Below are positions 2,929 through 62,059 of a DNA stretch of 64,000 bases, piece by piece. This DNA is from Stictocephala bisonia (taxonomy: Eukaryota; Arthropoda; Insecta; Hemiptera; Membracidae): NCBI GenBank assembly GCA_035578905.1, contig JAQJVL010000152.1, positions 682,001 to 746,000 on the forward strand. The letters run 5' to 3'. The notes beneath the pieces were generated by a model. That model was given only the letters and a program-made list of their open reading frames with translations. It searched no databases and was not told the origin of the DNA. The position numbers and the translations under genes were made by a program. Each line of letters starts with the position of its first letter. The stretch's first letter is position 1.

Positions 2929-3429
2929 AGCTTGGAGTGTTAGAAATAAGGTCTTTTTTAATATTAGCAAATGTAAAGTCATGACATTTACCAGGGAAAA
3001 AATATCTATTTTATACTATTATTCTATTAATGGTAGCACTCTTGAAAGACTATATGATTTTAAAGATTTAGGCTTGATTTTGGATTGTACTTTAAATGTT
3101 AATCACTTGTTAGATCTCATTTAGGATTTGATAGTTTAATATGGAATGCTTATTTTGCTCTTCACATCAATTCAATAGAAAAGATAAAAACCGTTTTTAC
3201 GTTATTTATATTTATTATGTTATATTATATGTGTGTGTTTGTTATTGTTATTTATTATTTATATTTTTACTATTAGTTTATTAGTATATATTTATAACAC
3301 TGGACTGGACGGAAATATGTTAGACTTTGAATATTTAATTGCATGTCTTCTTCTGCAGAACATGCATAATGTAATTGGGTGTATAACCTGTATTGTTGCA
3401 TGTAAAATAAATAAATAAATATACCGTAT

Positions 3430-3486
3430 AGGTTCAGCACCGTATGCAGCCACAAGAGTCACACCTCTATAAACAAAAACCATTAC
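3430..3486 (+). repeat. Direct repeat, copy 2 (partner 1748-1803)
   Basis: This copy lies about ten bases after the (ATAA)n tail of the LINE and is similar to 1748-1803 over about 55 bp. Confidence 0.55.
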
Positions 3487-4140
3487 GTATTATGTTGGCT
3501 AGTGGTAGTAAACTATAATGTTTGTCGTGCATTGACCAACCTATACATTCATATTATAACTGTAGTTGTATATATGTATGTATAGACACTACGTACGTTA
3601 TTATTATTGCTCACGAGATGGATGGTTACAGTGGCATTGCTTCAGTATGTTTCTCTCAAGAGCCAGAACGGATTACTCCAGGCCAGTGCTCAAGGTATTA
3701 CTCCGTCCCCCCATTCATGCACTCCCACTACGGTGTGGTGGAGGCAATGCCTGTAGACAGGTTCACTTGCCTACCTGATCGGCCGTTAACGAACAATAAA
3801 ACACGTTTTCAAGATTAGAAATTTAAACTTTCCCTCGTCGCCAAAATGAATTGTTACAACCATCCAACCGGAATTAACATCAGAACTCTTCCAAAAGCAA
3901 TGTTCACACTCGTGCCTTTTTAAGCGCAAGCGTTGTCACCAGGACGAATGTCTTAAGATTTGGAATTCAAAATACCAGTTTTTCGTAGTGCATGTCGCAG
4001 TGCATAGAGTTCCACCACAGTTGAATTTCTGTACGCTTCAATGAGCCATCTTCTTTGACTTGATGACAGTTTGGTGTGTTGTGTTATCACAAATAACAAC
4101 AAACTCTTGAGTTTTATGAAAATAGTCTTACAATTATTTA
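3487..4140. other. Unassigned intronic DNA
   Basis: Short open frames exist here, but no recognisable protein, RNA gene or repeat was seen. Confidence 0.4.
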
Positions 4141-4560
4141 TAGGACATACTTTGGTGATTTTTCATCCAGTGCTGTGCAACATAGCTCATCTGGATATAA
4201 GACACAAAGAGGCACTTCTTAGAGAGTTCAAAAAGATCCTATCTACTACGAATCTCCCCATTTTGCAAGATATCCCACAACGTGCAGGGCAACGTAAATC
4301 TAGATCTCAAATTAGGCTTCGCTAAAAAGCAACGATTCCAACCAATGAGAATAAACGTGTAACTTGGGATATGTTTGACAGTCAAACAAGTTTCTGGTAC
4401 AGACCCCAAGACCATAATCGGTGGAATGAACCTTCCTCGTAAGGAATGGACTTTGTTGAATCGCTTTAGCATGGATGTGGGAAGATGCAATTACTGGATA
4501 TAAAAGTAGGGAATGGCCAATGATCATTCATGTGATCACATAGTTAATTATTGCCTATTG
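4141..4560 (+). pseudogene. 3' fragment of an old LINE (same family as 20745-23990)
   Basis: The conceptual peptide includes VLCNIAHLDIRHKEALLREF, followed in other frames by a GMNLPRKEWTLLNRF-like block and a region equivalent to a Cys-x-Cys-Gly tail. This is the C-terminal region that follows the RT in some non-LTR retrotransposons. The same blocks, including VLCNIAPPEITRQ and GMNLHEGSG, appear at 23560-23960, so the two loci belong to one family. The copy is strongly 5' truncated, frame-broken and in the EPG5 intron. Confidence 0.65.
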
Positions 4561-4909
4561 CATTATTATCTGGGAGGATTAGCTTAGTGAATGCAAATTT
4601 TTTAATGTAAAAATATTTGTTATCTACAAAATTGTCTGAATTGTATACAGTTTGACCTTGTAAACTTGATTTACTAAATAGTATTAATGTAAAAAAATAT
4701 ATAAATAAAAGACAGTCTTTGTTAGGAAAACATATACATCACATTTTTTTTATAAATAATCAAACCTTTTTAATATCTGATGGTTGGGACTGAATCTTGA
4801 AAACCCTTTTGTATTGATCAAAATGAAACTGAAATAAGCTGCATTATAAATTCAACCTAACTTATGTCTAGAAAGTCTCCTAATTAAATCAATACTCTTG
4901 CTGATTTAC

Positions 4910-5797
4910 CTGACATTCTCCTGATTCAGTGATTAGACATTTTTCAAGTGTCCAAAGACGAAACTGATGTTCCTGACAAACTTTTCTCAAGGAAACTGAT
5001 TCCGTGTTGTTGACTGACAGCTTAGCCCGAGCTCGCTGGTAACTGGAAAGCAGCTCATAGAGAGGGTGACTCACAATGTCTCCTCTTCGTAATTCAGTCT
5101 CAATAAACTCTGTCACAAAATCTTCTGCAGCTTCTAATTCTTGGTTGTGGTACAAAGCTGTTAACTGAGACAAAGTAAATGGTTTTACCACCTCTTCAAC
5201 ATTATTTTCTTTTTCTTTAACAAACGGGAAAAATGGCTTGTGATTTAAAACCAGAGTAGGTGTTACTTCATTAACATCTACGTCAATTGAAGATGACTGC
5301 AAAACCGGTGCTGATGGACAGGCTTCATTAGCAATTTCTGTTTCTTCATTTGATTCAATCCATAAGTCTAGAGGACTTTCAGTAGAGGGCCTGGGTGGTA
5401 AGTGTATGGGTGATTCAAATGCAGTATCAGCATGGTATGAGCCCTTATGGAGCTGTGACACTGAGGGCTTGATTTCATTTAGCTCAGTTAAAGAAGCCTG
5501 GAAACTGGAATGTTGTATACATTCGCTTATTTCTGGATTCTGAAGTAAAGTATTTTCATTGGAGCTGTCCCAAGAAGAATGTGTTTCATTTGGTGGACAC
5601 TCCAGATGATCTTTGCCCTCACACTTCAACAGTTGTGCTGACTCTTCACTTGTGTCATTTCCTACACACACAATCTGTGTTAGCAAAGTTTCTTCACTAT
5701 CTGATAGCTGCAAACTTTCCACATTTTGAGGCAATGTTTCATAAGAACAATTCCTGACATTGTTCTTGGATTTTGCTCTTTTTGATTTTTTTCTATC
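4910..5797 (-). CDS. EPG5: EPG5 homologue, large N-terminal exon (296 codons)
   Basis: The minus-strand exon runs from an acceptor (TTTTATTTTAG, with the exon starting at 5797) to a donor (CAG|GTAAAT at 4910/4909). It is 888 bp, open and phase 0 at both ends. It opens with a Lys/Arg-rich run (DRKKSKRAKSK), has a long acidic Ser-rich low-complexity segment, and ends in a conserved helical block: FTLSQLTALYHNQELEAAED, then HPLYELLSSYQRARAKLS, then LWTLEKCLITESGECQ. The order basic N-terminus, disordered segment and YELL-x3-Y-x-R block is that of EPG5 proteins, and the next exon (885-1040) continues it in phase. In this family the protein acts at late endosomes and lysosomes as a RAB7 effector in autophagosome fusion. 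The initiator Met must be in an upstream exon (higher coordinates) that I could not identify. Confidence 0.8.
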
Positions 5798-10021: not shown

Positions 10022-11287
10022 ATGGACAAAAGAAAAGAGAAAACAGCCTTGAACGTGCCAGAGGTGAGTGAGCAGCCCAGCTCAGTGGTGGAGGCAGACA
10101 AGGGCGGCGTGTCTTCGGACCCTGCCCAGTTTGGTAGAGACAAGAAGAGGCTTGGGCTACCCGGAGCTAGAGAGGGGGACCGAGGAACAAGGTGCTGGAG
10201 TGGAGGAAATGGTAAGTTTTTACAAGCCAACCTCAATCATAGTATTGAGGCCTCTACTATACTAGCTAGAACTGTAAGAGATAGGGGGGTTAATGTTGCT
10301 CTGATTCAGGAACCATGGATTCAGGATAACTGTATTAAGGGTCTTAACATTCCTACATATAAGCTCTACGGGGGATCAGGTGGGCTGAAACCGCGGGCGG
10401 CCATTTTGGTTGCAGGCATAGGCAGTTGGCTGATACCGGAATTCTGTGGGGGTGATGTGGTTGCAGTCATAATTAAACTGCAGGAGGTCAATGGCGTAAG
10501 GAGGGAACTGGTGGTTGCATCGGTATACCTCCTATACGATAGGACGATCCTCCCACCATCAAGAAAGATGGTGGCGTTGGTGGATTACTGCCGGAGTGGG
10601 AACCTTGAGCTAGTGATCGGCTGCGACTCCAACTCTCGCAATGAGGTTTGGGGAAGCAGTAACACAAACGAGAGGGGCCTTGCGCTTGCAGAATACCTGG
10701 GAGGTACCGACCTTTTGGTACTCAATAAGGGTAATCTCCCAATCTTTTCGAACATCATTAGGAGGGAGGTTATAGACATAACTATAGCCTCAGCCTCAAT
10801 GTTTCATGACATTAAGGACTGGGAAGTTTCACAGGAACCCTCGTTGTCGGACCACAGACACATCTGCTTTGTGCTTGAGGGCCAGACAATACTGAGGGTG
10901 TACAGGAATCCCAGACAGACAGACTGGGCCTCCTATTTGGTGGAACTGTCTGACAGACTGGATCTAATTCCTAAAGGCCAGATTCGATCTGGACAGGACC
11001 TAGAGGAGAGGGTGGCACTCCTTACGGAGGCCGTAATCACATCTTTTGAGAACAACTGCCCTTTGATTACACAAAGGGATGCTCGAAGCCGGAGATGGAC
11101 TCAAGAATTAGAGGTCCATCGAAGGAGACCAGAAGGCTCCTCGGCAAGCCCAACAGATCCGGTAGTGATGCTGACTGGCTGGCCTACCGGGAGTACCAAA
11201 GAAATTACAGACGAGAGGTTCGCAGATTCTCCAGGAATTCCTGGAGAGACTTTTGTACCTTATAGAGACGACCTCTGCGATGTCTAG
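10022..11287 (+). pseudogene. LINE ORF: ORF1 N-terminus fused to endonuclease
   Basis: This is a 421-codon open frame. Residues 1 to about 60 are Lys/Glu-rich and look like an ORF1 start (MDKRKEKTALN). From about residue 63 (KFLQANLNHSIEAS) it is an exonuclease-endonuclease-phosphatase domain of the R1/Loa type. Visible motifs are VALIQEPWI, the D-x-N block GCDSNSRNEVWGS, a VIDITIAS block and the terminal SLSDHRHICF. Together these are the catalytic N, E, D, N, D and SDH set used to nick target DNA. After about residue 370 the frame drifts off the protein, so a frameshift lies near 11100, and the correct frame resumes as RETNY-like sequence and then at 11253. The fusion is best explained by an internal deletion that removed most of ORF1. 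Confidence 0.8.
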
Positions 11288-11905
11288 GCTTCACAAAGTG
11301 TTGGCTAAGGACCCTGGGGGAGGACTGGGACCCCTCATTAAAGAGGATGGGGAGTGGACCAGATCAGAAGAAGAGACTTTGCAACTTTTATTTGAGACTC
11401 ACTTTCCGGGATCCGTCAAGGAACCAGCGGCGAGCCCCCCCACTTTGGTGAGGCGGGCTTGCACCGGGGTCTCGCACGGGGACTGGAGTGAGGCAAAGAA
11501 GGTTATCACAGAGCAAAGGATTAAGTGGGCAGTTGAGTGCTTCGCCCCCTTCAAGAGTGCTGGGCCGGATGGCATCCTGCCTGTGCACTTGCTGAGGGGC
11601 CTGGAGTCGCTCCTACCCCACCTGACCACAATATATAGGGCTTCCATGGCCTTGGGTTTTATCCCAAGGCTGTGGAGGACCACAAAAGTGGTCTATATCC
11701 CCAAATCTGGAAGATTTCAGACCGATCAGCCTCATGTCTTTTCTATTAAAGACATTGGAGAGGCTGGTCGATAGGCATATGAGGGACGGGGTATTGAGAG
11801 ATAATCCGCTCCATACAAATCAACACGCATACATGGCTGGGAGATCTGCTGAGTCGGCTCTTCACAGACTCGTCATGAGGGTTGAGGAGACGATTCGGCA
11901 GAAGG
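11253..11905 (+). pseudogene. LINE reverse transcriptase, N-terminal half only
   Basis: Two overlapping frames (11253-11774 and 11734-12189) encode RT blocks 0 to 2. First comes a linker with TSAMSRLHKVLAKDPG, then SAGPDGILPVHLLRGL, TTIYRASMALGFIPRLW, TTKVVYIPKSGR and, after a frameshift near 11720, ISLMSFLLKTLERLVDRHM and NQHAYMAGRSAESALHRLV. The D-containing block A and the YxDD block C are absent, because the sequence jumps from VEETIRQKEF to a segment that leads straight into RNase H. Confidence 0.8.
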
Positions 11906-12057
11906 AGTTCAACAATGTCTCCCTGCAGCCTATGATCGCTGCTGTCGTTAGAACGGGCGTCAAGGGCAGAATACCTAGGTACAGAATTGACAGGCAGGTC
12001 AGGGCTTTCCTTCCAAGTAGAGATAAGTGGATAGGGAGTACCGAGCCTGCACAAGTC

Positions 12058-12444
12058 AAAGGAAGCGTCTGGTATACAGACGGCTCACTTACAGAGGAAG
12101 GCGCAGGTGCTGGGGGTACGGGAGGGGGGCACGGAAAGTTCTGTCTGTACCTCTGGGGGCCCATGCTACCGTCTTCCAGGCGGAGGTGATGGTTATCATG
12201 ACAGCCACACAAGAAGAAATGCGTCTTGGTGGCTTCGGAGGAGTATTCAATCTGTTCGGACAGCCAGGCGGCGATAAAGGCGATCATGGCACCACGTACC
12301 AGCTCTAAATTGGTATGGGAGTGCCAGGGAATCCTGGAGACTCTTTGCCAGCGTAAACAGGTGAGATTCATATGGGTCCCTGGGCATGCTGGTATTGATG
12401 GAAATGAGAGAGCCGATGCACTGGCTAGGAGAGGGGCAAAGTGA
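12058..12444 (+). pseudogene. LINE RNase H domain, frameshifted
   Basis: The peptide WYTDGSLTEEGAGAG (first Asp) is followed by HATVFQAEVMVI (Glu). After a frameshift near 12230 come [12 protein letters not shown] (second Asp) and [20 protein letters not shown] (final Asp). All four catalytic acids of a type I RNase H are visible but are split between frames. The domain removes RNA from RNA-DNA hybrids in Loa- and I-type LINEs. Confidence 0.85.
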
Positions 12445-24167: not shown

Positions 24168-26406
24168 ATGAAATCTCTTCTTGAGAAAAAAAAAAGATCA
24201 AAGATATGAAATCTCATAGAATTAAACTAAGCAAAGAAATATTTGTACTAAAAGAGAAGGTGACTGATCTGTATATAACAACGAAAGATCTCCCTTCTGA
24301 TAATTTTATGAGGCAGTATTATCTTAGAACGAAAAACAAGTACAGGAAAGCAATACATCAGGCCAAGGCTGAGAATATAAAAAAAATAATTGAAAAGTCA
24401 GATCAGAAATCAAAAGCTATATGGGGTATAATAAATGAAAATAAAGCACCGTTGAAAAAAACAAATACAATATCAGAGTTTTGCATTGAAAAAGATGATG
24501 GTGAGCTAGTTTACGACCCTGGTGACATTGCCAACATACTCAACAGTTTTTTCAATAATGTTGGAGAAAATAAGAAAACATCTCAGATATGTTCACCAGA
24601 CAGAATACTCCAGAATGGCACATCAATAAGCAGAGAATCCCTTTTTTTATTACCAACGTCAGAGGAAGAAGTAAGCTGTGCAATAAAAAGTAAGAAATCA
24701 GCTGGTAATGATGAAATACCTAATATTTTGATAAAAGAAATGAACGAGTATCTAGCTGGCCCTATAAGTTACTTGATAAACGAGTCTTTTGTAAGTGGTC
24801 TGTTTCCTGACGCACTGAAGCTCGCCATTGTAAAACCTATCTTGAAGAAAGGCAACAAGTTTAAGTGTGATAACTACAGGCCAGTTTCCATTCTTTCCAC
24901 CATGTCGAAAATCTTTGAAAAAACTCTAAACAGATTGAGCAGTTTTTAGAGAAACACAGCATTATATGTAAAAACCACTTTGGCTTTGTGAAGACAAAAT
25001 CAACTACCAATGCTATATTCTCTCAACTACATAAAGTAGTTAGAGGATTGGATAGGAAAAACCACTGTGGCGGCCTATTTTTTGATCTGAGCAAGGCCTT
25101 CGATACAGTCAACCATACCTTGTTGTTAAATAAAATGGTTCCCATCGGAATACGAGGCCATGCTCTAGAATGGTTTTCGTCTTATCTTCAGGGTCAGAGG
25201 CAGTTCGTGGAAATATCTGCAGTGAACACTGCGGGTTTTCAACTGCGTCACTCCTCTGCTGTGACCACAGTAACTAGTGGGTCCCCCAGGGGTCTATACT
25301 CGGCCCAATTCTGTTTTTAATTTTTATTAACAATCTTCCAATGACAGTAAAAACTGCCCAAGTTTGCCTTTTTGCTGATGACACTTCCCTCTCACTGTCC
25401 GCTCCTTCTCGTGAACAATTAGAAATCAATGCTCTTCTGGAATCTAATAACCTCCTTCAATGGTTTGAGGATCATTCACTTAAAGTCAATTCATTAAAAT
25501 CACATCTCATTAAATTTCACCTTAGTCAAAATTCGTCTGATTTTGACTTTGGGTTCAGTGTTTTCCTTGGAGACACAGAACTAGAATCATCGGAGACTGT
25601 GAGATTCCTGGGTCTAACTATAGACGATAAATTGAGTTTTTATCCACATATTATGAATGTATCCAATAAAATGAGCACTGGAATTTTCATATTGAGGAAT
25701 CTGGCAGGGACGGTGGGCCCTGAGGTCCTTCTCACTGCCTACTACGGATTGCTGTATCCACATCTTGTGTATGCAGTTCCCGTGTGGGGTGGGGAGTCTC
25801 GGAGGACGCTATTCTTGTTTAGATTGCAAAAAAAAGCAATAAGAGTGATATTTTCATTAAAAAGGCGTGACTCTTGCCATGAATACTTCCGAACGTTTAA
25901 CATTCTTACCTTCCTTTCAATTTTTATCCCAGAAACCCTGAGTTTTGTTAAACAAAATTTCCAACATTTTTCAACAGCTTCTAATCATATTTACAACCTC
26001 CGCAATAACCACATGATTAACATTCCTTCTCATTCTACTTCTTTTTTTAAACGTAACCATCTATACAGTGGAGTCAAAATCTTCAATAGCTTACCAACTG
26101 CACTGAGGATGGAGTCCGATAGCACTAAGTTCCGGCGTCAGGTAAAAACATACCTCATTGAAAAATGTCATTACAGCGTCAAGGAATATGTGGCTGGTGG
26201 TCATGTAAAATAGTTCCGACATTCTTGATTTAAAGGTAAATAAGTTTTATGTATTTTTAGTTTTCTTATTTTGTAAATACAAATATTGTCTATAGTTAAT
26301 ACTGACTTTGTAAAATTATTTAGCTATATACTCAATGTATAATATTGACTTGGCAAATGCAAGATACATTGTCAATTGTGCCCAATAAATGATTGATTGG
26401 TTGATT
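24168..26406 (+). mobile_element. 5'-truncated CR1/L2-like LINE, fairly young
   Basis: The element encodes the linker and a nearly complete RT in three frames with only two frameshifts. It ends in a (TGATTGATTGGTTGATTG)-type tail and is bracketed by the 8-bp repeat GAAGAGAT. It lacks the endonuclease and ORF1. The CR1/L2 assignment rests on the C-terminal thumb region (GVKIFNSLP near the end) and on the short-repeat tail. Confidence 0.85.
24206..26213 (+). pseudogene. LINE reverse transcriptase, three frames
   Basis: The first frame (24206-24949) has the linker and RT blocks 1-2: KSAGNDEIPNILIKEMNEYL, FPDALKLAIVKPILKKGN, NYRPVSILSTMSKIFEK. The second (24988-25320) has HFGFVKTKSTTNAIF and FFDLSKAFDTVNHTLLL (block A, catalytic Asp). 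The third (25341-26213) has VCLFADDTSLSLS (block C, intact FADD), SETVRFLGLTIDDKLSFYPH, LLTAYYGLLYPHLVYAVPVW and GVKIFNSLPTALR. Frameshifts fall near 24945 and 25290, in the GVPQGSIL block. All catalytic acids are present. The enzyme primes reverse transcription at nicked target DNA. Confidence 0.85.
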
Positions 26407-26414: not shown

Positions 26415-26780
26415 GCTTTCTTTAGTGAAAGGATTTTGAACGGTCAACTTTATAAAAAATATACAGTTATCTACGTGAAGACTAGAACGAATTATGTCTA
26501 TGTTCATTAAATTATGTCTTATCACTGTTTTAATACTTCACTATTGGTTTTAAGGGAGATAAAGTATATATTATATTTTGAATTATAAACTTTTCTACGT
26601 ATAAAATTTATAGTGCATGTTAAAAGTAATCTAACTACTAATTTTAATTATACTCTACGTATTAATATATATATATATATATATATAATTATGAACGCAT
26701 ATAAATAAATACTTTTGTAGCCTGTTTCATCTTTTAACTTACACCTAAAATGAGGCCTCTCTTTCGAAAAAAAAAAAAAA
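26415..26780. other. AT-rich DNA, (TA)n at 26665-26687
   Basis: No gene is present. There is a TA dinucleotide run and a 15-base A run just before the inverted repeat arm. Confidence 0.5.
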
Positions 26781-26881
26781 ATAAAGAAATCCGTCATTTT
26801 ATTGTATCAAATACAAAAACATCAAAATTTAATAGAAATCTTTAAGCTATATTGTAATACTAAATTTGAATTAAACACAAG
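26781..26881 (+). repeat. Inverted repeat, left arm (about 100 bp)
   Basis: The reverse complement of this segment matches 27564-27665 with about 96% identity (four clear mismatches in about 97 bases), starting from CTTGTGTTTAATTCAAATTT at the inner edge. The pair encloses 682 bp without a transposase, as a foldback or MITE-like element would. Confidence 0.9.
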
Positions 26882-27289
26882 CAGACGTATGTGTAGAAAA
26901 ATGTCCGTTTAAGTTAAACGGTATGGTTTTTATGCCGATGTAAAATATGTTTGTCTATATGAACTAGTTAATATATGACATTAAGACTACATTTTCCCCT
27001 TCTTTCTGTGTCATGAAGGCAGTTGAAATTTGTAATAAACGTAATGTACAGTTCATTCCAAAAAATTTCTTTAACTTTTCTGTCACTAAACTCATTGAGA
27101 TTTTTTATTATATAATTGACACTCTATTTCAATTCAATTTCATTAATAGATATGTCTGTGTACAAAACAAACCATTTTCAATAAAACACAACAGAAAAAC
27201 TTTTAAAAAATCAAGGTTGGTAACTAGCTGATGATACAGACAGGCGATTGAATGTGCGTAGAGAGGTTAAAACCTGTACGTTACAGATT

Positions 27290-27445
27290 TTAGACCGACT
27301 ATCACCTCCCCTGCAAATCTATAACAGCGGCGGCAATTTAAAAATCGCCGTTCACTCTGTGTACGCAACATTTTAAAACTATGTTGCATAGATTTGCCGA
27401 TTACATAATCGGCGGTGATTAATCGCTAGTGTGCATCTAGCCTTA
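27290..27445. repeat. Palindrome-rich segment, MITE-like, copy 2
   Basis: It contains GCAACAT/ATGTTGC arms (27365-27371 and 27381-27387), the palindrome CCGATTACATAATCGG (27398-27413), and an outer block related in inverted orientation to 24020-24110. It sits inside the loop of the 26781/27665 inverted repeat. Confidence 0.5.
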
Positions 27446-27563
27446 TGGAGGGATTAGCCACCATAAACAGATTCAGTGAGCCAGGTCTTAAATGGCTTGA
27501 TGGATTTTACAGCTTTGTGACAGGAGATCATTTAGATTTTATCCTTATTATTAAACAGCAAGA

Positions 27564-27665
27564 CTTGTGTTTAATTCAAATTTAGTATTACAATATAGCT
27601 TACAGATTTCCATTAAATTTTGATGTTTTTATATTTGATACAATAAAATGACAGATTTCTTTTTT
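27564..27665 (+). repeat. Inverted repeat, right arm
   Basis: This arm is the partner of 26781-26881 in opposite orientation. A (TA)n run (27680-27701) follows, mirroring the TA run outside the left arm. Confidence 0.9.
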
Positions 27666-27754
27666 TTATTTTTATTTTTATATATATATATATATATATA
27701 CAGTTACGACACTTCCGTTCCAGCGTGATAGAGCTAGCTAGTGCTTCAAGTAGC

Positions 27755-37660: not shown

Positions 37661-39186
37661 CTAGCCAATTAAGTTGGTTTCCCAGTCGTGTGCTAGGAAC
37701 TCTCCGATGCTGTAAAAAGCCTGGGACAACAGTATGTCTCTCAAGCGGGTCTTAAATATTTTTGAATTTGGAGCAATTTTAATTTCTTTAGGTAAGCTGT
37801 TAATTAATTTGACACCCACCTGCGAGGGCAGGTGTTGATAGACTACCGTTCTGTGTTGCCCAGTACGGTAGTCATCTCTGCCTCTAGTATTATAATTATG
37901 TAAGTCACTGCCCCTTATCAGGTTGCAAGGCAGAGTCAACAGCTTGAGTTGTTTGAACATTGGTTTGCACGACTCTCTGCTCATTAAATTTGCAATAATT
38001 CGGACTGACTTCTTTTGTAGTCTAAACACTCTCAAGAATTCACTATATACACCACCTCCCCAAATCACCAGTCCATAGGAAAGGTGAGGGTAAATGAGAC
38101 CACAATATGCCGTCATCAGTACCTGAATAGGGCAGTATTTAGAGAGAGTTCTCAGTACATTAATGCCTGAGGATAACTTAGAGCATACACTATTAATATG
38201 GTCATTCCATGTCAAACCTCTGTCGAGGTATATTCCAAGGAATTTAGTGGACTCCACTTCTTCTAGCACAGAGTCCGCCAGTAACACAGAGGGGCTACTT
38301 CTGAAATAAATGGGCCTCAAACAAAAGTTGATGACCTGTGATTTTGTTGAATTTGTTGTAAGGTTCAGCATATTAAAATGCTGAGCACAACTGTTAAAAT
38401 CAAGGTAAACGTTTGATTCTAGATTTTCTTTACAGTTTTCACTAAAGCAAAGAGTCGTGTCATCGGCATATTGGACGAGTTGACCATGCTGCAGGATGAA
38501 CCAATATCATTGACATAAATCAAGAACAGAAATGGGCTGAGTATTGATCCCTGGGGGACGCCATAACTCAGCTGTTTGGATTTTGAACGTTTGTTTGAAA
38601 TTTGGACTTGCTGAGATCGATGGTTCAAGAATGATTTTAACCACAGGTGTGAAACACCTCTGATACCATACGTCTCAAGTTTTTGTAGTAGTATACTGTG
38701 GTCAACGCAATCGAAAGCCTTGGAAAGGTCTAAGAATACACCTAGGGTGTGCTTGCGACCTTCAAGGCCCCTGACAATTTTATCGACAAGGCTTACAACA
38801 GCTTCTGTAGTCGATTTACCTTTCCTAAAACAAAACTGATTTTTTGAAAGCACATTGTGTTTTTCAAAAAAGTTCATCAACCGTGACAGAAAAAGTTTCT
38901 CGAAAATTTTACTGAACACGGGTAAAATAGAAATAGGCCTGAAATTATCTATTGAATAGAGATCTCCTTTTTTAAATATTGGTGTTACTTTTGCTGCCTT
39001 AAGAGAATTTGGAACGGTTCCATTTAAAAAAGAAAGGTTGACTAACATTGTTAATGGGCATAGAATATGCTGATAACATTTCTTAATCAGCCACATTGAA
39101 AGATAATTTATATCATTCGATTTTTTAGAATGGAGGTGACGGATCAGAGAAGCCAGTTCGTCCTCTGTAACCAGAGCTAATGCCAT
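37661..39186 (-). pseudogene. Reverse transcriptase of the FLYWCH/SGNH LINE
   Basis: The upstream frame (38419-39186) has [78 protein letters not shown] (catalytic Asp) and [21 protein letters not shown] frameshift falls just before the catalytic box, which reads [16 protein letters not shown] in the neighbouring frame (about 38445-38490). The downstream frame (37661-38371) has STKFLGIYLDRGLTWNDHIN, LMTAYCGLIYPHLSYGLVIW and GVKLINSLPKEIK and ends in a stop after about 236 codons. All three RT acids are present, so only the single frameshift breaks the enzyme. Confidence 0.88.
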
Positions 39187-42979: not shown

Positions 42980-44370
42980 TAGCCTTTTATTCCAGGCTTA
43001 ATTTGTTTAAATTTTGTTCCCTTATAATATAATCTGGAAGAATGTTTAAAATTTTGACGCCTGCTAGAGATGGTTTGCGTTCCATGGCCGATGTACGGTG
43101 CCGAGCCACTCTAAAACTGTGACTACTTCTTGTTTCGTGTTGATGGATGTCGCTACCTCGTGTTAAATTACATTTGAATCTACAATAAAATGCAGTATCC
43201 AAAATGTAAATGTAAGGCAGTGTTATCAAACCTAATTCCCTGAAGGGCTTTTTACATGACTCTCTAACTTTTAATTTTGAAATTATTCGGATTGCTCTTT
43301 TTGGTAGCCGAAAAACTCTTTGAAGTTTGTCTATGAAACAGCTATCCCACAGTATTACTCCGTAGGTAAGGTGAGGTTAAATGAGACCAAAATAGGCCAT
43401 TAACTGTACATTAACTATGCAAAATTTTGAAATGTTTCTCAAAGCAAAAATACCAGTGGCAATTTTTGCACAAACACTGTCAATGTGACAGCTCCAGGTC
43501 AACGCCCTATCTAGGTGAATTCCCGGGTACTTGACAGAGTTTGTTTCATCAAGAAGAATGCCATCAACCATTATCAGTGGCTTTAAGCAAGACTCTTGAT
43601 CTCTTAAAGAAAACTGAATGTAATTTGTTTTTAAATGGTTTGTAGATAAATATTTCTTTTCAAATTGTTGAACACAGGCATTAAGATTAGTGAATGCTTC
43701 AATTTCAAGTGCATGAATGGACTTAGCTTTGAAGCAGAGTGCTGTATCGTCCGCATATTGAACGATATTTCCACTCAAGACAGAAGACCCTACCTCACTA
43801 ACGTAAACCAGGAAGAGAACTGGGCCTGTGGAACTCCACAATGAACTCTTTTACTATTAGAAAATGAATCACCAATTTCAACACATTGACTTCTGTCGTC
43901 CAAGTAAGATTTGAGCCATGAGTAAGGAAGGCCGCGAATGCTACATCTTTCAAGTTTTGCTAATAAAATGTTGTGATTGACACAATCAAAGGCCTTGGAC
44001 AAGTCTAAAAAAAACACCAACCGTTTTTTGTCAGTTTTCAACGATATCTTTTTGTCATTCACATGATACAAGTGGTAAAAAATATATACAACTCGTTTAA
44101 GGGTACATAGGCTGGATGATACTCTTTCTGTTTGCCAAAGACAAGCAAGGTCTTTAACTTTCCGCTAAAATTCACGGATTGACTGTTTTTGGTTTAAAAC
44201 AGAATATGATGTGTACACTTAAGTCTAGAATTTCTTAAAAGTTGTTTAACTCGATTTCTCATGTGTCGATATTTTTGTTCATTCGGCATTTTACGTTTGT
44301 TTGGATTTTCTAAAAAGTGAATCCCTCCAAGTCTAATTAAACATTCTGGCAATATTTTAATCAGACCCTG
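42980..44370 (-). pseudogene. Second, 5'-truncated copy of a related LINE
   Basis: On the minus strand: linker RHMRNRVKQLLRNSRLK (44240-44300), [20 protein letters not shown] (block A), GDSFSNSKRVHCGVPQ, NIVQYADDTALCFKAKS (intact YADD, 43740-43790), VKYPGIHLDRALTWSCHIDS, a VQLMAYFGLIXP block and SLAGVKILNILPDYI near the end. It matches the RT of 37661-39186 block for block. A small internal deletion or rearrangement lies near 44075-44110 and a frameshift near 43820. Confidence 0.85.
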
Positions 44371-51627: not shown

Positions 51628-53481
51628 CAGAGGTTCTCAAACTTATTTTGTCTACCGCCCACTTCGAGAATTAATTATTTTCTAACGCCCCCCCAAATTT
51701 GTTACTTTACTATATCTTAAGAATCACAATCGCAGTCATTATTTTAATAATTAAATTATGTGCGTCATGTGAAAATAAGACTTTCTGGTGAGAGTATTTA
51801 AAACACCGTATTGTAATATTAGAACAAATTTTATTCATGTTATTAAAACAAACACTTCAATTTGAATTTTAAAACTAATGTGAAAGATGAATCTGATGAT
51901 TTTTAATAAGTTTGTTAATATCAGGCTCGAATTTATTAAAAAACAGCCGTAAGTCATCGCGTTCGGTAATCTGCAACCGATTTCTCTTTTTAGTTAGCAT
52001 TCTTGCCATAGCACTAAATCCACGTTCACACAAATACGATGATGGGAATGCTATCAAAAATCGTTGAACGATGGACCACAATTCAGGGTACAATTGCAGG
52101 ATTGGCTATTGTAACCAAAATTCTTGGTATCCATTTTTTAATTTTATTTTTATTTCCTCGTTCGTTATCAGTTCTATGAGTTCTTCTTCCAGCTGGGGTG
52201 TTCCTGCTGTGTTGACATTTGAAAAAGGATCCAACACCCAGTCCGGTATTTCCAATTTTTAAATGTCCTGGAATCGTTCTGTGAAATCACTGTGGAGGTT
52301 CTCCAAATGATGGCAGTAAACAAGCAAGTCTCGTTGTTGATGTTGAAGGATACTGCTGACAAATTAGGGAAATTGTGAAACTCACGTCTGCCGATATTAT
52401 TCTTGTATAAGAGCAGTTTGGCTACAAAAACAGCAGTGACATTTTTTGTTTTAATCAAATTCAAGTCGTCATCTTGAAGTTGGAGATTGACATCATTCAA
52501 TGACTTATATAGGTCTGTCAAGTACGCAATATCATTCTTTGAAGTGATGAGGTTGTCGTGCAATTCTTTGTCTTTGTTTGCTAAGAACTCTATCACAGAG
52601 TCAAACAGATTGTAAAATTGAGTCAGACAGTTACCTCTTGATAACCAATGCACTTCTGTGTGAAATAGCAATCGGTTGAAATCTTCATCATTAGCAACAC
52701 AAAGCTGATTAAATAATCTGTCATTTAAAGAGCTGTTTTTAAGTACGCTATGAAGCCTTTGTGACATCCCGTCATAGCCGGAGCGCCATCCGTAGCAGCT
52801 GATATAATATTTTTCAGTGGAATTTCTTTCTCATCACAAAATTTTTCCAGTGTATTAAATATGGTTTCTCCTATTGTATCTGTCTCTAACTTTTTGGCAA
52901 ATAGTAGTTCTTGACATATTTTCTCATTTTTAATAAACCTCATGTACGATAACAACAATGCTTCATTGGTTGGTTAAGTAGACTCATCTAACTGAATTGA
53001 GAATTTAGAAGTCTTCAGATGATTGCACAATGACTCTTCAATGTTTTCAGCCATCTCATCAATTCGTCTTTGCACGGAACTATTGCTCAAAGTAATTTTT
53101 CGGATAATGTTTATAGAGCACAGTAGTTATTACTTCTTTTATTGCCAGTAAAATTAAATCATCTCCAATAGTGTGAGGTTTACCTGTTTGAACAATTAGC
53201 TAGGCGATATAGTAGGAAGCTCGGAGTCTGTCGTCGTATTGCTTAGAAGCCGCTGAAAAAAGTATTGACACAGTTGCCTGAGTTGCATGCTTCTTTTCCA
53301 GGTCTTGAAAATAAGTCACATTTTTGTATTTTTTATCTGAATGCATTTTATTCAAATGATCTTGTAGCCTATAGGGTTTCATCGCTTCATTGGAAAATGT
53401 TTTTTGACAAAGAAGGCACAAAGGTGAAGATTGATTTGTGGGATTTTCAATAAATCTATATTTTATATATTCCGCACTATA
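51628..53481 (-). mobile_element. Charlie/SPIN-like hAT element, main part
   Basis: The terminus CAGAGGTTCTCAAACT at 51628 follows TTCTAGAT (51620-51627), which fits the nTCTAGAn TSD preference of this hAT group. The transposase is on the minus strand and extends to 53481, where a 3.0-kb element interrupts it. Its first codons resume at 56484-56516. The opposite terminus was not found. Confidence 0.85.
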
Positions 53482-53505
53482 TAGTCCAGTCAATAAATGA
53501 CCCAA
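51875..53505 (-). pseudogene. hAT transposase (BED finger to dimerisation domain)
   Basis: Order on the minus strand: SAEYIKYRFIENP and a BED-type finger CLLCQKTF...HLNKMH (53330-53480); middle frames with FCDEKEIPLKNIISAATDGA and PAMTGCHKGFIAYL (52725-52958, RNase H-fold core with Asp); EVHWLSRGNCLTQFYNLFDS (52600-52660); and the C-terminal dimerisation block FPSSYLCERGFSAMARMLTK with NRLQITERDDLRLF (51930-52050). At least four frameshifts or stops separate these. Domain order and motifs are those of the Charlie/SPIN/ZBED5-like branch of hAT transposases. Confidence 0.88.
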
Positions 53506-54057
53506 AATGAGGTGTAGAGTGCGTGAGCAGGTAACTAAGCGATTCCTTCAGAAACTTGTTCAGGGGGCTTAGGTTGTTAACATACCAAAAGTCCTGACTC
53601 CTAGGTGATGAGCGGGGGGGAGGAGGGGGGGCTAAAGGTACGAATTTTGGGTTTTTCGCTTATATCTCGAAAACGGTGCATCGGAGAGAAATATTTTTAG
53701 ATAATAAAATGGAGTTCTTAAAATTATCTAAAACTTTTATATCATATGTTTTTTTTCTAATTCCTAACCCTTTTCGAGCTATACCCTCAGAAAAAGTTGA
53801 AATTTACAAAAAAAAATCAATTTACGTCAAAATATTTATAAACATTGCATCATATTGTCTAAACCTATTCATAAACGAAAAGTATGAATAGGAAAGAAGT
53901 TGTAGATTTTTAAATTCCCTTTTAGAATATATATACATATGCTGATTAATGTCCAACCCGCCTAAAGTTACAGCTATTTTAAAACTTGTATAGCATTTTG
54001 CAATTTTCAGAAAATTAGTTTGTATATCATATTCTTAACCCACAACCTTTGTTCGTG
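53482..54057 (+). repeat. Left terminal inverted repeat, 576 bp
   Basis: It begins TAGTCCAGTCAA. Apart from a 10-base insertion near its outer end, G-run length differences and scattered changes, it matches the reverse complement of 55913-56483 at roughly 95% or better. It contains a G-rich run (53614-53628). Confidence 0.95.
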
Positions 54058-54165
54058 TATTTTGTTTAAATTACAGATAACAATATCAGCAATTTGTTAG
54101 TCAATTAAATTTAATATTGTTAGTCAATTAATTAACTTGATGCTGTTCGAGTTGGTAAAAGGGCT

Positions 54166-55731
54166 ATGAATTCAATAGTTGACTTGACATTTGCAGACGT
54201 AAAGTTATCGTGCAAGGATCGGGCATTGCCAATATCTTCTGTCAGCTCATTGATAAAAGTTCACGATGAAAGGGTAGTAGTTACCCAACATTGCTCTTTC
54301 AGCGGATATGTATAAGCAAACGGTCAGATGAGGATTTGACGACATATTTTGAGTATGAGTTGGCCCTATTTCCCTTAGCACTGTTCAACGAAAGTGGCAT
54401 GAGAAAGACAAACAAATCAGTGCTGTACAACTTGTTTGAGCCAACCAAGAAAGATATTCTTCTGCCTCAAATGAACATTGTAGTCGATGGAGGATTTCTA
54501 CTCCACAGAGTTATTTGGCCAAAAGATGCATCGGTTGTGACTATTTGTAATAGTTATATCACCTACGTCGACCACCATTATCCTGGGACTACTCGCACTG
54601 TGGTGTTTGATGGGTACGCAAACACAGCCAATAGCACTAAATCACAAGAACAAATGCGTCGTTACAGACTAAAAAGGTCAGCCTACATCAATTTGACATG
54701 GGACACACAAATACCTGTTAAACAGGAAGACTTTTTATAAAATCCTACCAACAAAACTAACTTCATCTCCTTACTGGAGATAAAGCTGCAGGAGAAAGGG
54801 ATACATACTCTTCAGGCTACCGATGACGCTGACATCCTAATCGTGAAGACTGCTGTTGAACAATCCACTCACAACTCTGTGGCTGTCGTTGGTGAGGATG
54901 TAGACCTTGCTGTCCTGTTGTTTGCTTCCACTCCTGCGACCCGAGATATCTTTATGCTGAAACCCGGACGAGGGAAAACCAAAACAATAGTACTGTCCAC
55001 CCAAGAGATGCAGCACCGTAGATTTGAACACATCCTGTTCCTTCATTCATTTACCGGATGCGACACAACTTCTGCTACTTTCAGGAGAAGCAAGATGGGC
55101 TTCTTTAAATTGTACTTGGAGTCAGAAATCATCCAGCAAGCAGCAATGACATTTTCTAACCCCTCCTCTACTTACGACCAGGTTGAAAAGGCTGGGGAGA
55201 TGTGCTTTCTGAAGTGGTATAAGGTGCCAAAAAAAACAAACCTCCCTTAACCAGTACCGCTTCCAATCGTTTACGAGGTCAGTGGCAAATATGAAGCCTG
55301 AAATCAGCTCCCTACCTCCAACAGAGAATGCAGCTAAACAGCACTCTCGGCGAACCTACCACCAAGTGCAGCTGTGGCTCGGTAATGAGCTGCCCCCTCA
55401 AGATTGGGGGTGGAAACGTGTAGGAGACACCCTGGTGGCAATTACAATGGAAAATCTACCAGCACTAGAGGTTCTTCTGAAAACTATATTTTGCCGCTGC
55501 ACCAAGGATTGTGTAATTGGAAAATGTGGCTGCCGAAAAGCGATGATCACCTGTTCTGCAGTGTGCCTCCACTGTCAAGGGAAGTGCCTGAACAGTGTGC
55601 CTGTTGACGATGAGGACGATGAAGACGATGTAGAGCCCATTCAGCAAGAGCCACCCGCTACTGAGGAAGAAGATGCCATGGAAGAACAATCATTGCCTGG
55701 GCCCTCAAGTTCAAAGAGGATGAAAATTTGA
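54166..55731 (+). pseudogene. FEN1/XPG-like (PIN-fold) nuclease with Cys-rich C-terminus
   Basis: Frames run from 54166 (MNSIVDLTFADVKLSCKDRA), via a frameshift near 54285, to 54291-55250, and via a second frameshift at an A8 run near 55232 to 55731. One in-frame TAA lies at 54738-54740. Conserved acids sit where FEN1/XPG nucleases have them: NIVVDGG (Asp codon about 54486), VVFDGY (54609), TDDADILIV (54822), VGEDVDLAVLL (54894) and FTGCDTTSA (55062; compare the G-C/S-D motif of FEN1). After that come RTYHQVQLWLGNELPPQDWG and a Cys-rich module (55489-55590, CRCTKDC, CGCRK, CSAVCLHCQGKC), then an acidic Ser-rich tail. Proteins of this layout are scattered through animal genomes as uncharacterised repeats. 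Its role as transposase or passenger is inference. Confidence 0.75.
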
Positions 55732-55912
55732 TTACTTTTAAAGTTGAGAGTAAAACATTAGGAATATATTGAGAACAATGGGGTTTACAATTATTATTGT
55801 AATGGTGTAACGAAACTATCTGTAGAATAAAGTGTGAAATTTGTCATCATCATTATTTTTTCTACTTAATTTAATAACTTGCTTATAAGTGGCCATATAT
55901 GTTATTAGATGA

Positions 55913-56483
55913 ACGAACAAAGGTTGTGGGTTAAGAATATGATATACAAACAAATTTTCTGAAAATTGCAAAATGCTATACAAGTTTTAAAATAGCTGTA
56001 ACTTTAGGCGGGTTGGACATTAATCAGCATATGTATATATATTCTAAAAGGGAATTTAAAAATCTACAACTTCTTTCCTATTCATACTTTTCGTTTATGA
56101 ATAGGTTTAGACAATATGATGCAATGTTTATGAATATTTTGACGTAAATTGATTTTTTTTTTGTAAATTTCAACTTTTTCCGAGGGTATAGCTCGAAAAG
56201 GGTTAGGAATTAGAAAAAAACATATGATATAAAAGTTTTAGATAATTTTAAGAACTCCATTTTATTATCTAAAAATATTTCTCTCCGATGCACCGTTTTC
56301 GAGATATAAGCGAAAAACCCAAAATTCGTCCCTTAGGCCCCCCTCCCCCCCCCCCCCCCCCGCTCATCACCTATGAGTCAGGACTTTTGGTATGTCAACA
56401 ACCTAAGCACCCTAAACAAGTTTCTGAAGGAATCGTTTAGTTACCTGCTCACGCACTCTACACCTCATTCCTTGACTGGACTA
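55913..56483 (-). repeat. Right terminal inverted repeat, 571 bp
   Basis: This is the partner of 53482-54057. The C-rich run at 56338-56362 corresponds to the G-rich run of the left TIR and differs in length, as slippage would produce. Confidence 0.95.
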
Positions 56484-56516
56484 ATACTGCTGTTTCTTCT
56501 TTTTTGCTTCCAACAT
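56484..56516 (-). pseudogene. First codons of the interrupted hAT transposase
   Basis: On the minus strand ATG at 56516 opens MLEAKKKKQQY, which runs to the insertion point. The next residues, SAEYIKYR, are at 53457-53480 on the other side of the 3.0-kb element. Confidence 0.7.
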
Positions 56517-56767
56517 AATTTTGTTTTCAAAAATGCCGAAGTAAAGAATCGAGTATTAAAAACTTGCAAATGACACCACTCACAGTATTCTTACTGAGAA
56601 AATAAGGGACCGTACGTACAGCACTTTATCTCGTCACTAAATTCACTTGTTTTCGTAATATCGTCGAATGACACTGACTGACTAGATGTATTAATAGTTT
56701 TTTAATTAGCATAATACGTGTTGTGTGTCGTTTACTTGTACTGTGACTAGATGTCGCACGTTTTTAT
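56517..56767. other. 5' flank of the interrupted hAT
   Basis: This short AT-rich stretch lies between the hAT start codon and the next transposon. No hAT terminus is recognisable. Confidence 0.4.
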
Positions 56768-56772: not shown

Positions 56773-57279
56773 GGTCATTCCATGTCAAGTCAACCAGGTC
56801 ATGACACCCATCTCTTTAGATTTTGATGAAACTTGGCACAATTGTTGCATTTGCTATCCTATTGATAAATACCAAATTTTATTTCTCTATCTCTTATAGT
56901 TTTTTTTCTACAAATTTTTTAATTTTCTTAATTTAACGCGATTTTAGGCCTCGGATTTCGCGTCTTGCAATGTAACTTGTAGCTTAAAAAATTAATATCT
57001 TGAAAACTATTTGAGATATCACCATGAAACTTTGCATAATATTTAATTAATATATTTAAAATAAAGAAAAAATACATTCACTAACCTATCTCAACTCCAA
57101 AAAAATAATAAAAATATTATAATCAGAAATTTTTTTATTTGAAAACCGTTGTCGGGATTTACTTAAATTGCAATATCTCAGGTCTCAGACCTGGTAGAGT
57201 GTTCATATTTTTTTTACATACTCCTAGATACATAGGCTAACAGATAAACAAAAGAGATGTATGGCTTTTTCACATGTTA
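56773..57279 (+). repeat. Left TIR of the 5.3-kb element, about 507 bp
   Basis: It starts GGTCATTCCATGTCAAGTCA and matches the reverse complement of 61541-62059 at roughly 95% apart from small indels near the outer end. Confidence 0.93.
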
Positions 57280-57842
57280 GACTGATATTCAACATTATTT
57301 ATGAGTAACAAAATTACAGACCAACTAATCAATAATTATTATAACCAATAAAATCAATTAATTATTGATAGAGCAAGGGGTCAGAACTAAGACATGACAA
57401 AGATTTATAAAAGAGAAATTATAAGCACTAATATTTACACAGCTTGTATGACTCATCTATCTTGTCTCAACAGGATCCTTTCATGTTGGTTCATGCTCCT
57501 AGCTCTACAGCTAACCACTGAACACTGCCTCAGTTTAGATCTTGCTTTGAGTGAGTGAAGACCTATAGTGCAAACTTCTTGTGCAGTGATTGTGATTTTT
57601 AATTTTATTAAGTGAAAAGTGAAACATAACAGTTACAGTATATAACTATGTGATTTCCATTAAATGTTTTAATTTAATAAAACTATTTAGTTTTGAAGTA
57701 AAGATGCACCTTTTAATTTTGGAAATCAACAAGAGTCAATTTTCTCTGACTCAGTGATTGTGTAAAACTAAGTGAATAGGCTAGTTACAGGTTGTATCTA
57801 TTTTTCTTCTTGGACTTTAAAATAGGGTAAGCGGAAATCAAA

Positions 57843-60389
57843 ATGACAAATCCTCAAGCTTGTAGCATTGGACTATTTAAACAATCAGACTGTTTTCAGA
57901 CAACTTATACACCTTCCAAAAAATTACAATCTGTATCAGAATTAACTGAGGAAGAAAAAGAATTAATTCAACTTAGATCTGGAATCAATTTAATTGAATT
58001 TAAAAATGTTTGTTCTCATCACAGCTACTACTTTCTCAATGTGCTTGAAAAATATCAAACAGTATGCATAGATCCATTAAAAAAACACAAAAAGCCAATA
58101 AAAAAGTCACTAAGAAGTGTATCTTTAAGTTTTTCAAAACAATTGTGTGAAAAAAATATTTTAATTAAACCTGGACAAAAGATATGCCCTTCATGTCGAA
58201 ACTTCTGTGAAGAAAAAACTAAAATCACTGAAAATGAATCTGACGACGAACTAATGATTGAATTGGATTCATTTGAATCTAGAAATGTCTCCCTTTCACA
58301 AACAAATGCAGCCTTAGATGATTTGGGTTTAACTCCAATTAAACTTCATAATTTGTCATCACATAGTAAGGGATCGTATTACAAAAGAAAAGTTGAAAAA
58401 GTAACAAAAGAAGTAAAGAAAAAAATCTCCAAAGCTCTAGATTATGACATTGAAATGTCAGAAGACGAAAAAGAAGATGAAAGAAATGTTATCAAAAAAG
58501 CAGAAGATTTTGATAAGCTCGTGGGCCTTTTAAAAGAAAAACTTATGTCTGTTGGGAGATCCCAAAAAGTCCAGATTCTGACTTTAGTGCCAGAATCTTG
58601 GAGCCAGAAAAAAGTTGCTACAGAATTTCAGGTGACCGAATATATGGTAAAACAAGCAAGGAAACTTAAACGAGAGAAAGGTATCCTAGCTATCCCTGAC
58701 CCTAAAAAAGGTAACACACTCTCCGAAAACACAGTTAAACTTGTGACAGACTTTTACCAAAGTGATGAGAATTCAAGAGTTTTACCCGGAGCAAAAGATA
58801 AAGTGAGCATTAAAAAAAATATTTATATGCAAAAAAGACTTATTCTCAATAATTTGAGAGAGCTTTACTCTTGTTTTAAATGGAAATGTTCCGACTTGAA
58901 AATAGGATTCTCGAAATTTTGCAGTTTAAGACCAAAGTGGTGTGTCCTTGCTGGGTCAGCAGGTACCCATACAGTATGTGTATGCAGCATACACCAGAAT
59001 GTGAAATTGTTACTAGATGCTGTAAAAATTGAAGAAAGATACAAAGATTTGATCAAGATGTTGGTTTGTAATGTTGAAAACAGTGAGTGTATGCTACGCC
59101 ATTGTGACAACTGTCCGTCTGATGATGCACTGATTGAATACTTAACTGCAACATTGAGCGAAGATTATGATTTAGAAGAAGAAATAATTATAAGCCAATG
59201 GGTTAATACTGACAGGACAGAAATGGTTAAGCAATCAATCAGCGTTGAAGACTTTATTTCTTTACTGAGCAAATCTGTAGAAAACCTAATCCCACATTCA
59301 TATATTACAAAATCACAGTCTAAAACTTTCAAAAAACTGAAAGAAGATCCGCCTTTGAATACAGCAATTGTAGTAATGGATTTCAGTGAAAATTATTCTT
59401 ACACCATTCAAAATGAAATCCAAAGTTATCACTGGAACAGAGGTGGATGCACAATTCATCCAGTTGGTCTCTACTTGAAAAAGGATGATAAAGTTTTAAT
59501 TTCCAACCACTGTTTCATAAGTGATGATTTACAACATGACACTTGTTTTGTGAATTACGTACAAAAAGAAATTTCGAAATGGCTGAAAGAAAATCATCCC
59601 GAAATAAACCAAGTTCATTATTTCACTGACGGCTGTGCTGGTCAATACAAAAATAGAAATAGTTTCAAAAACCTAACAAACCATCATGAAGACTTTGGAA
59701 TGAAAGCCGAACATTCATTCTTTGCAACAAGCCACGGGAAATCAATATGTGATGGCTTGGGAGGAACTGTTAAGAGAATTTTGAGAAAAGCCAGCCTTCA
59801 ACTTTCAGATGAAAATCAAATCAAGACAGCAACTGCAGTTTATGACTTCTGTAAAGTCAACATTGAAAAAATAAATTTTCACTTTATTGACACAAAATAT
59901 GCTGAAGCTTTCAGATTGGAGTTAGCGTCACGATTTTTAACCACCAAGACTATTCCCGGTACTTGAAGTTTCCATTATTTCAAACCATTAAATACAAATG
60001 AAATTGAAATAAGGAGGACTACTGATAGTCCTAATCCTACTCTAATGTTTTCTTTTGATTCTGCTACGGATTGGGTCTGCATTCAACCATCTTTAAACGA
60101 TTATGTGGCTGCAAACTACGATGGAAAGTGGTACTTTGGACTCGTTAAAAATGTGTTTCATGAAGAAGAAGATGCTGAAATTCTTTTTCTTCACCCTCCA
60201 GGACCTGCTGCCAGCTTTTACTGGCCTCAAAGAGAAGACTTGTGCATAATACCTGTGGAGCACATTATCAGTACAGTTGATGCACCGCAATCAAGTAGCA
60301 CTGGCAGAATGTACTACTTCAAAAAAGAGTTTATCAGAAAAACAGAAGAGTGTTGGATGAAGTGGAAAAAATATAACAAGCACAACTAA
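57843..60389 (+). pseudogene. DDE-type transposase, one in-frame stop
   Basis: The frame runs from ATG 57843 to TAA 60387-60389 (about 848 codons) with a single TGA at 59964-59966 (after KTIPGT), a position where a CGA to TGA CpG transition is likely. The N-terminal part has a Cys pair (KICPSCRNFC, about residue 117) and a Lys/Glu-rich region. An HTH-like segment (SWSQKKVATEFQVTEYMVKQ) follows at about residues 256-280. The catalytic core reads IVVMDFSENYSY (Asp about 512), HYFTDGCAGQYKN (Asp 596) and FFATSHGKSICDGLGGTVKR (Asp 637). A C-terminal SH3/Tudor-like part (YVAANYDGKWYFGLVKNV, 60090-60150) lies past the stop. No introns are needed. The three acids suggest an RNase H-fold transposase that cuts at the TIRs. 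Confidence 0.8.
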
Positions 60390-60509
60390 TAATTGCTATA
60401 AAAGATATTGATTCTAGACTTCAGTTTTTATTTTATTTCACATTTATTAAATGTAAGTAAACCGCAAATTTATAATTTCTTAATAATATTCTACTTTTTG
60501 GAATATTAA

Positions 60510-61536
60510 CCCTCCTAGTGTTTATTGTCGGCTAGCTGACCTATTATTATCGTGTCGAAATGTTAAAGGTCGGTTTACCGACAATTGAACAGGCCTTTGC
60601 TATAAACGCTGTTACTATGCGACCGTTAATTCAACAATTATTATTTTAGTATCTATTGAAAGCTCAGATGTTGTATGACGTCACTGACCAATCAGACTTC
60701 AGTGATACATAAAACTATGTATCACAACTCTTGTAATAGAATGACTAGGAAGTTCTGGAAAAAAATGTTTTTCAACCTAGTCGACATTGCAGTATTCAAT
60801 TCCTATATTATTTATAAAGATAATACAGATAGGCCTATGGCTAGAAGGGACTTTATAATTGACATTGTAGAGTCTCTTGTGGAAACTGAGGAAGTCCAGC
60901 CAGCTCATGACACCAATTTACACAAATTGGAAAAATTACCTGGAAAAACCGAAAGAAAATGCATAATATGTTCACGGCCTAATAAACGTGACAGAACAAC
61001 TTTTTACTGTCCAGGTTGCAATGTAAGTGTCCACAAGCATTGTTTTCACAAACTGGATCACTATTGGAGGCCCACTAGGGCTGGAAGAAAGAGAAAAGCT
61101 TCTGAAAGTGACTCAGACTAAACTTAGAGGATTTCCGAGTGTTGTATATAGCTGTATATATTTATTCTATAAATTTAAAATTAAAAATAAATTCTACAAA
61201 CTATATATTTTTTAAATCTAGACAATATGTGAAACAAAATGGCTATTTTGGATTTCTTTTTTGATGTGTGTAAGTGTGCTCTGCAAGGTTGCAAACTTTG
61301 AAAAAAAAAGAAAAAAAAACATTTTTTTCAACTTTGAAGAAAAAAAAAATTGAAATAAACAGGTATGTGAATATTCTTTTACGTATTATTATTGGATAGT
61401 TTATTACAAATAAAATAGTGTAAATTTTATATTTGTAGTGTATCAAATAATCATTTTATGTACATTTAAGAAAATGTATGCGAAATGGGTCAAAATGGCT
61501 GAACATTGAAGGTTAAAACAGTGAACACAAGGAGGG
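60510..61536 (+). mobile_element. piggyBac-like element, internally deleted (1.03 kb)
   Basis: TTAA at 60506-60509 and 61537-61540 flank termini CCCTCCTAGTGTTTATTG and, reversed, CCCTCCTTGTGTTCACTG. The interior keeps only the C-terminal part of the transposase. It inserted next to the inner edge of the right TIR of the host transposon. Confidence 0.92.
60675..61121 (+). pseudogene. piggyBac transposase C-terminus
   Basis: The frame contains MTRKFWKKMFFNLVDIAVFN, SYIIYKDN, FIIDIVESLVE and a Cys/His-rich end CIICSRPNKRDRTTFYCPGC plus VHKHCFHKLDHYW, the C-terminal cross-brace zinc motif of piggyBac transposases used to bind DNA ends. The catalytic DDD region and the N-terminus are deleted. The first residues before about codon 22 are probably not original protein. 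Confidence 0.88.
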
Positions 61537-61540
61537 TTAA

Positions 61541-62059
61541 CTAAACATGTGAAAAAGCCATACATCTTTTTTGTTTATCTGTTAGCCTATGTATCTAGGA
61601 GTATGTAAAAAAAATATGAACACTCTACCAGGTCTGAGACCTGAGATATTGCAATTTTAGTAAATCCCGACAACGGTTTTCAAATAAAAAAGATTTCTGA
61701 TTATAATATTTTTATTATTTTTTGGAGTTGAGATAGGTTAGTGAATGTATTTTTTCATTATTTTAAATATATTAATTAAATATTATGCAAAGTTTCATGG
61801 TGATATCTCAAATAGTTTTCAAGATATTAATTTTTTAAGCTACAAGTTACATTGCAAGACGCGAAATCCGAGGCCTAAAATCGCGTTAAATTAAGAAAAT
61901 TAAAAAATTTTTAGAAAAAAAACTATAAGAGATAGAGAAATAAAATTTGGTATTTATCAATAGGATAGCAAATGCAACAATTGTGCCAAGTTTCATCAAA
62001 ATCTAAAGAGATGGGTGTCAAATTAATTATTTACTGGGTGATTTGACATGGAATGGACC
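61541..62059 (-). repeat. Right TIR of the 5.3-kb element, about 519 bp
   Basis: This is the partner of 56773-57279 in inverted orientation. A 10-12 base difference lies near the outer end (TTAATTATTTACTGGG). Confidence 0.93.

Follow-up and report, generated by a model that had tools for sequence, protein, structure and literature searches.

The AcademX lineage of the Academ superfamily carries a nuclease of the XPG type, and Harbinger transposons prefer TWA as a 3-bp target. The paper that defined AcademX is reportedly Kojima 2020 (Mob DNA 11:15). The relevant passages of one account describe AcademX elements as DDE transposons that also encode a nuclease and have target duplications of 3 or 4 bp, against 9 or 10 bp in AcademH, a difference that seems related to the encoded nuclease and helicase (PMC10045372). 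According to a second source, four Kolobok groups (KolobokE, KolobokD, KolobokH and KolobokP) are likewise DDE transposons that have gained a nuclease or a helicase, and they are marked by 4-bp duplications of TTAA and by a C/DxxH motif (PMC9587614).

Within a 64,000-nt stretch of the genome of the membracid Stictocephala bisonia (the window), we analysed a transposon (Table 1) that, with very little room for doubt, is non-autonomous and derives by internal deletion from a larger DDE-plus-nuclease transposon; such copies were probably spread in trans. The larger parent, combining a DDE transposase with a FEN1-like nuclease and 3-bp duplications, fits within the AcademX lineage when compared with its published description.

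The two terminal inverted repeats (TIRs) of the window element, with terminal sequences TAGTCCAGTCAA / TTGACTGGACTA, are identical in 551 of 563 ungapped columns, with 21 additional gap columns; the long, near-identical TIRs and the ATA duplication noted in the preliminary description of this DNA were therefore borne out. When the TIR was searched against the 1.68-Gb genome assembly (G000; 40 of 249 first-look candidates scored), at least 40 rows, that of the window among them, matched at 98-100% along almost the entire TIR, and one further row matched in part. Of 20 places that were fetched, 18 had both ends, which together with the window gives 19 two-ended copies. Matching 3-bp flanks were found in 18 of these 19, the exception (L052) showing TA (2 bp), and the duplications took ten different sequences (ATA, ATC, CAA, TAA, AAT, TAG, GTA, TTA, TCT and TAT). 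The number of genomic places and the matching flanks show that the window TIRs and duplication are not due to chance. A duplication of TA alone (2 bp), which would give the element GTCC ends, is not favoured, given the match at 3 bp with varied sequence. Removal of the window element with a 3-bp join produces a 116-codon open frame, with an ATG, across the empty site; a 2-bp join also gives an open frame, and the upstream ATG is obtained only with the 3-bp join or with no duplication. Since so many copies have matching 3-bp flanks, the length of the duplication is settled independently of this join. The frame into which the element is inserted belongs to a BED-finger-like gene on the minus strand (52174-53478 and 56487-56560), which we take to be of the ZBED/hAT type.

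Table 1. Features of the element and of its coding remnant, in window positions
Feature	Position	Strand	Remarks
Whole element, very probably a non-autonomous internal-deletion derivative	53482..56483	+	3,002 bp; based on TIRs and flanks, and on copies elsewhere
Left TIR	53482..54057	+	576 nt; starts TAGTCCAGTCAATAAATG
Right TIR	55913..56483	-	571 nt; terminates ...CCTTGACTGGACTA
Left target-site duplication	53479..53481	.	ATA
Right target-site duplication	56484..56486	.	ATA
Filler at deletion junction	54117..54137	+	21 bp; replaces 3,485 bp (962-4446) of L057
Start of coding remnant (DAVRVGKRAMNS...)	54139..54282	+	From the region that separates the nuclease from the DDE domain lost here; profile positions 932-984
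Nuclease remnant, part 1	54285..54737	+	VVDGG, VFDGY
In-frame TAA	54738..54740	+	Common to 14 of the 18 short copies holding the site
Nuclease remnant, part 2	54741..55238	+	DDAD, GEDVDL, GCD
C-terminal part	55240..55731	+	After the A-run frameshift of the window copy, to the element's stop codon
Cys-rich (CXC-like) module	55492..55587	+	Several relatives publicly named 'Tesmin/TSO1-like CXC domain-containing'

The single coding region that had been reported for this element, with acidic motifs in FEN1/XPG order followed by a Cys-rich block, is present as nuclease coding sequence but not as an intact frame. The motifs and the Cys block are where they had been placed, and all seven active-site acids of the nuclease are kept (Asp codons at 54486, 54609, 54825, 54831, 54897, 54903 and 55062). 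The frame itself is broken three times, by a 1-base deletion after 54282, by the in-frame TAA and by an extra A in the A-run at 55229-55236. Homology to related proteins begins abruptly at 54139, and Pfam gave no credible match for the four window pieces.

The FEN1/XPG-like fold proposed for the nuclease holds at the level of structure prediction: the model (pLDDT 88.2) finds EXO1, FEN1, XPG and XRN as structural matches, and in VIA 49 of the 50 rows shown were titled EXO1, FEN1, XPG, Rad2, XRN or GEN1, the remaining one being a nucleotide-excision-repair complex. Six of the acids were matched to EXO1 by profile alignment (E 0.0074) and the seventh (DGG) by order, and for labelling them we assumed the residue numbers of EXO1. 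Across a 68-row family alignment, six of the sites are D in 66-68 of the 68 rows and the seventh is D or E in 67. The nuclease thus shares a predicted fold and seven active-site acids with the FEN1/EXO1/XPG/XRN 5' nucleases, and differs from them in its 13% identity to the EXO1 chain, in its fusion to a transposase, and in one position where the Glu of EXO1 is aligned with D in 62 members of the family, E in 5 and A in 1.

The larger form is represented in the same genome by a 6,448-bp element (L057; G000:C5:2547530-2553977) that has the same ~570-bp TIRs as the window element and is flanked by TTA on either side. Its identity to element positions 1-635 is 97.3% and to positions 657-3002 97.1%, the latter part being the same 3' 2.35 kb with the right TIR included; between the two shared parts L057 has the extra bases that are replaced by the filler in the short form. 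DDE motifs are found inside this extra stretch (VFDN at 2901, TFDQPLY at 3389, LGGFH at 3476 and DMTIETTL at 4118), and the nuclease motifs follow downstream at 4793-5201, with the GCDTT motif not found in L057. The coding region of L057 is split in three pieces. A second copy of the same long form (L056, on C7843) has a truncated right TIR and a stop directly after the second catalytic D. As both long copies read are interrupted, no demonstrably working helper of the window's own family was seen among them.

Comparison of the short copies bears on how they spread. The 21-bp filler junction is common to 17 of the 19 two-ended copies, the exceptions being L037, with a further deletion across the junction, and L051, with an independent deletion; L051, in which neither the frameshift site nor the TAA site is present, does not enter the counts of 18. 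The same 1-base nuclease deletion is found in 17 of 18 copies and the same TAA in 14 of 18, in insertions that have different flanks. Most simply read, the copies multiplied after the nuclease had been broken, which points to movement in trans: disabling mutations common to separate insertions suggest that the short copies probably spread with a broken nuclease gene, although part of this sharing could be due to gene conversion between copies. The counts of 19 do not include two of the 21 short-copy places, L045 and L049, where the right half is missing; both contain element positions 1 to ~1535 and end within a few bases of each other, and the sequence that follows is unrelated.

It might be argued that selection favoured the short element as a source of functional nuclease acting in trans, as a helper or regulator of the full-length transposase. 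Indeed, one short copy (L055) keeps an uninterrupted nuclease frame of 486 codons, and the TAA is absent from 4 of the 18 copies; yet with the frameshift in nearly all copies and the TAA in most of them, we regard such selection as very improbable.

The internal deletion is set in a wider context by the relatives of the protein. The joined window pieces retrieved 244 relatives, 120 of which were listed; the named ones among the matches listed come mostly from arthropods, chiefly insects, but a clam and a sea anemone are also represented, and an Aphis craccivora protein has 86% identity over 47% of the query. When a long relative was used as the query instead, 124 matches were obtained (120 listed), and a soft-coral protein is among those listed. 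Full-length relatives have ~1,500 aa and extend far upstream of the window remnant, in the order of two zinc-like N-terminal modules, the DDE region (FVFDNxDxN, TFDQPLYxKA, LGGFH, DMTIEQ), the nuclease and the CXC module. All 236 collected proteins match a profile built from 13 full-length members, and in 75 of them the DDE region and the nuclease occur in a single chain, by the loose criterion that the match starts before profile position 500 and runs beyond 1250 (a few of the 75 are gapped); many of the others are fragments on short contigs. Searches of IMG/VR and GTDB contigs, by protein patterns and by an exact 30-base TIR pattern, retrieved no relatives.

The three DDE residues are invariant wherever they are aligned in the 68-row alignment (D 59/59, D 64/64, E 68/68). 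A structural model of one relative, P0190 (pLDDT 85.4, pTM 0.63), has an RNase H-like order of strands and helices ahead of the nuclease. Its Foldseek and VIA lists contained no DDE enzyme, since nuclease matches filled them, and the DDE fold is for this reason unmatched to a solved structure. The Pfam family DUF6589, of unknown function, matches the DDE region above the cut-off in P0184 only, just below it in P0203 and below it in others.

These data also bear on the possibility that the nuclease is cargo, a host or foreign gene that an unrelated transposon has captured. The nuclease can be separated from the DDE part as a domain, and of the 199 relatives with at least 150 residues aligned to the window, 124 continue upstream beyond the catalytic Glu, whereas the other 75, many of them fragments, do not. 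The two domains nevertheless share a chain in the 75 of 236 relatives mentioned above, and their pairwise distances correlate (Mantel r 0.78 over 64 rows, with 0 of 2000 permutations as high); fusion within the chain and correlated divergence make capture by an unrelated element so improbable that we take it to be ruled out for this family. The preliminary description had offered, as one of its two readings, a non-autonomous element with the nuclease as cargo, and the first half of this reading stands. Cargo is not the most apt word, since the nuclease is the C-terminal remainder of the element's own transposase protein after internal deletion.

When the genome was searched with P0003, the 54 candidates scored, out of 1,722, gave 56 rows, and by our tally these separate the forms in which this nuclease occurs. 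Twenty-five rows start at or after the deletion point and were classed by this start as nuclease-only matches, probably of the window's kind. Twelve rows, at ten places, belong to the same family (55-69%), at places that also hold sequence upstream of the nuclease, and the remaining 19 (38-43%) represent other families. A further family in this genome encodes a protein of this kind (L058 and L059) and has a left end, TAGTACAGGCAATA, that by eye resembles TAGTCCAGTCAATA of the window family; L058, the only place where a stop-free frame of 1,488 codons was read, has TIRs of its own, ~556 bp long or more, with no matching target duplication found.

The other reading in the preliminary description, in which an undescribed class of DNA transposon has the nuclease as its sole transposase, has virtually no probability left and is ruled out. 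In its favour, the active-site acids are intact, and the short form is abundant and recent (at least 40 TIR places at 98-100%) and holds no DDE gene. Against it, a larger relative with the same TIRs and a DDE region upstream of the nuclease exists in L057, a finding of the sort that the preliminary description had itself named as a refutation, relatives encode the two in one chain, most short copies were amplified despite a common frameshift and stop in the nuclease, and all 19 other-family rows among the 54 candidates scored start upstream of the catalytic Glu.

The parent family carries the features of AcademX as described. Its invariant motifs and the RNase H-like order in P0190 indicate a DDD/E transposase of the RNase H type, the whole of which has been lost from the window copy; the nuclease, by its predicted fold, accompanies the transposase in the same chain; and the duplications are of 3 bp, in L057 as in the short copies. 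L057 is also close in length to the bivalve Academ elements, which average 5,565 bp (PMC10294476). Membership in Kolobok is not indicated, given the mixed 3-bp duplications of the window family, against TTAA in Kolobok, and LGGFH after the second D, against C/DxxH. The ten duplication sequences likewise do not follow the TWA preference of Harbinger.

Deletion derivatives spreading in trans are an ordinary process, and this explains the anatomy seen in the window. The parent carries coding sequence for one long protein with zinc-like N-terminal modules, a DDE domain of the RNase H type, a nuclease of the FEN1/EXO1/XPG type and a Cys-rich C-terminus. The 3,485-bp deletion, beginning before the reading frame, removed the entire DDE domain, and the joint was patched with 21 bp. 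This most likely happened through aborted gap repair after excision; the first 15 nt of the filler repeat 54094-54108, and such partial copying of nearby sequence would be expected if repair synthesis slipped and the ends were rejoined. The short form, with both TIRs, probably then multiplied through mobilisation in trans by the full-length protein. In that protein the DDE domain most likely cuts and joins with a 3-bp stagger, and the FEN1-like domain would most likely deal with flaps or gaps at the element ends. A more specific proposal, which we put forward only tentatively and consider rather unlikely, is that transposition also requires catalysis by the FEN1-type domain, which would trim the ends and thereby fix the duplication at 3 bp. 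The parent protein would then be a two-enzyme transposase, and if this were true, its nuclease could be tested separately.

A candidate class of nuclease-only transposons is removed by these results. Gained instead are a short and a long element with the same ends and a well-defined DDE-FEN1 fusion family, whose named members come mainly from arthropods but include relatives from soft coral, sea anemone and clam, through which the role of a flap-type nuclease inside a DDE transposase becomes testable. The remaining interest of the locus lies in this conserved FEN1-type domain.

Other repeats were observed elsewhere in the window. An adjoining element at 56776-62055, with TIRs of ~500 bp and ends near CATTCCATGTCAA, has the look of a further DNA transposon whose gene is of the DDE type; it contains a 707-aa open frame (57843-59966) with MDFSENY, FTDGCAGQYKNR and CDGLGGTVKR, for which Pfam gave no credible match. 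Open frames at 10022-12189, 24206-26213, 37661-39186 and 43377-43841 resemble, by eye, fragments of non-LTR retrotransposon endonuclease and reverse transcriptase. A small inverted-repeat unit at 26767-27678 has arms of 115 nt that are 94% complementary.
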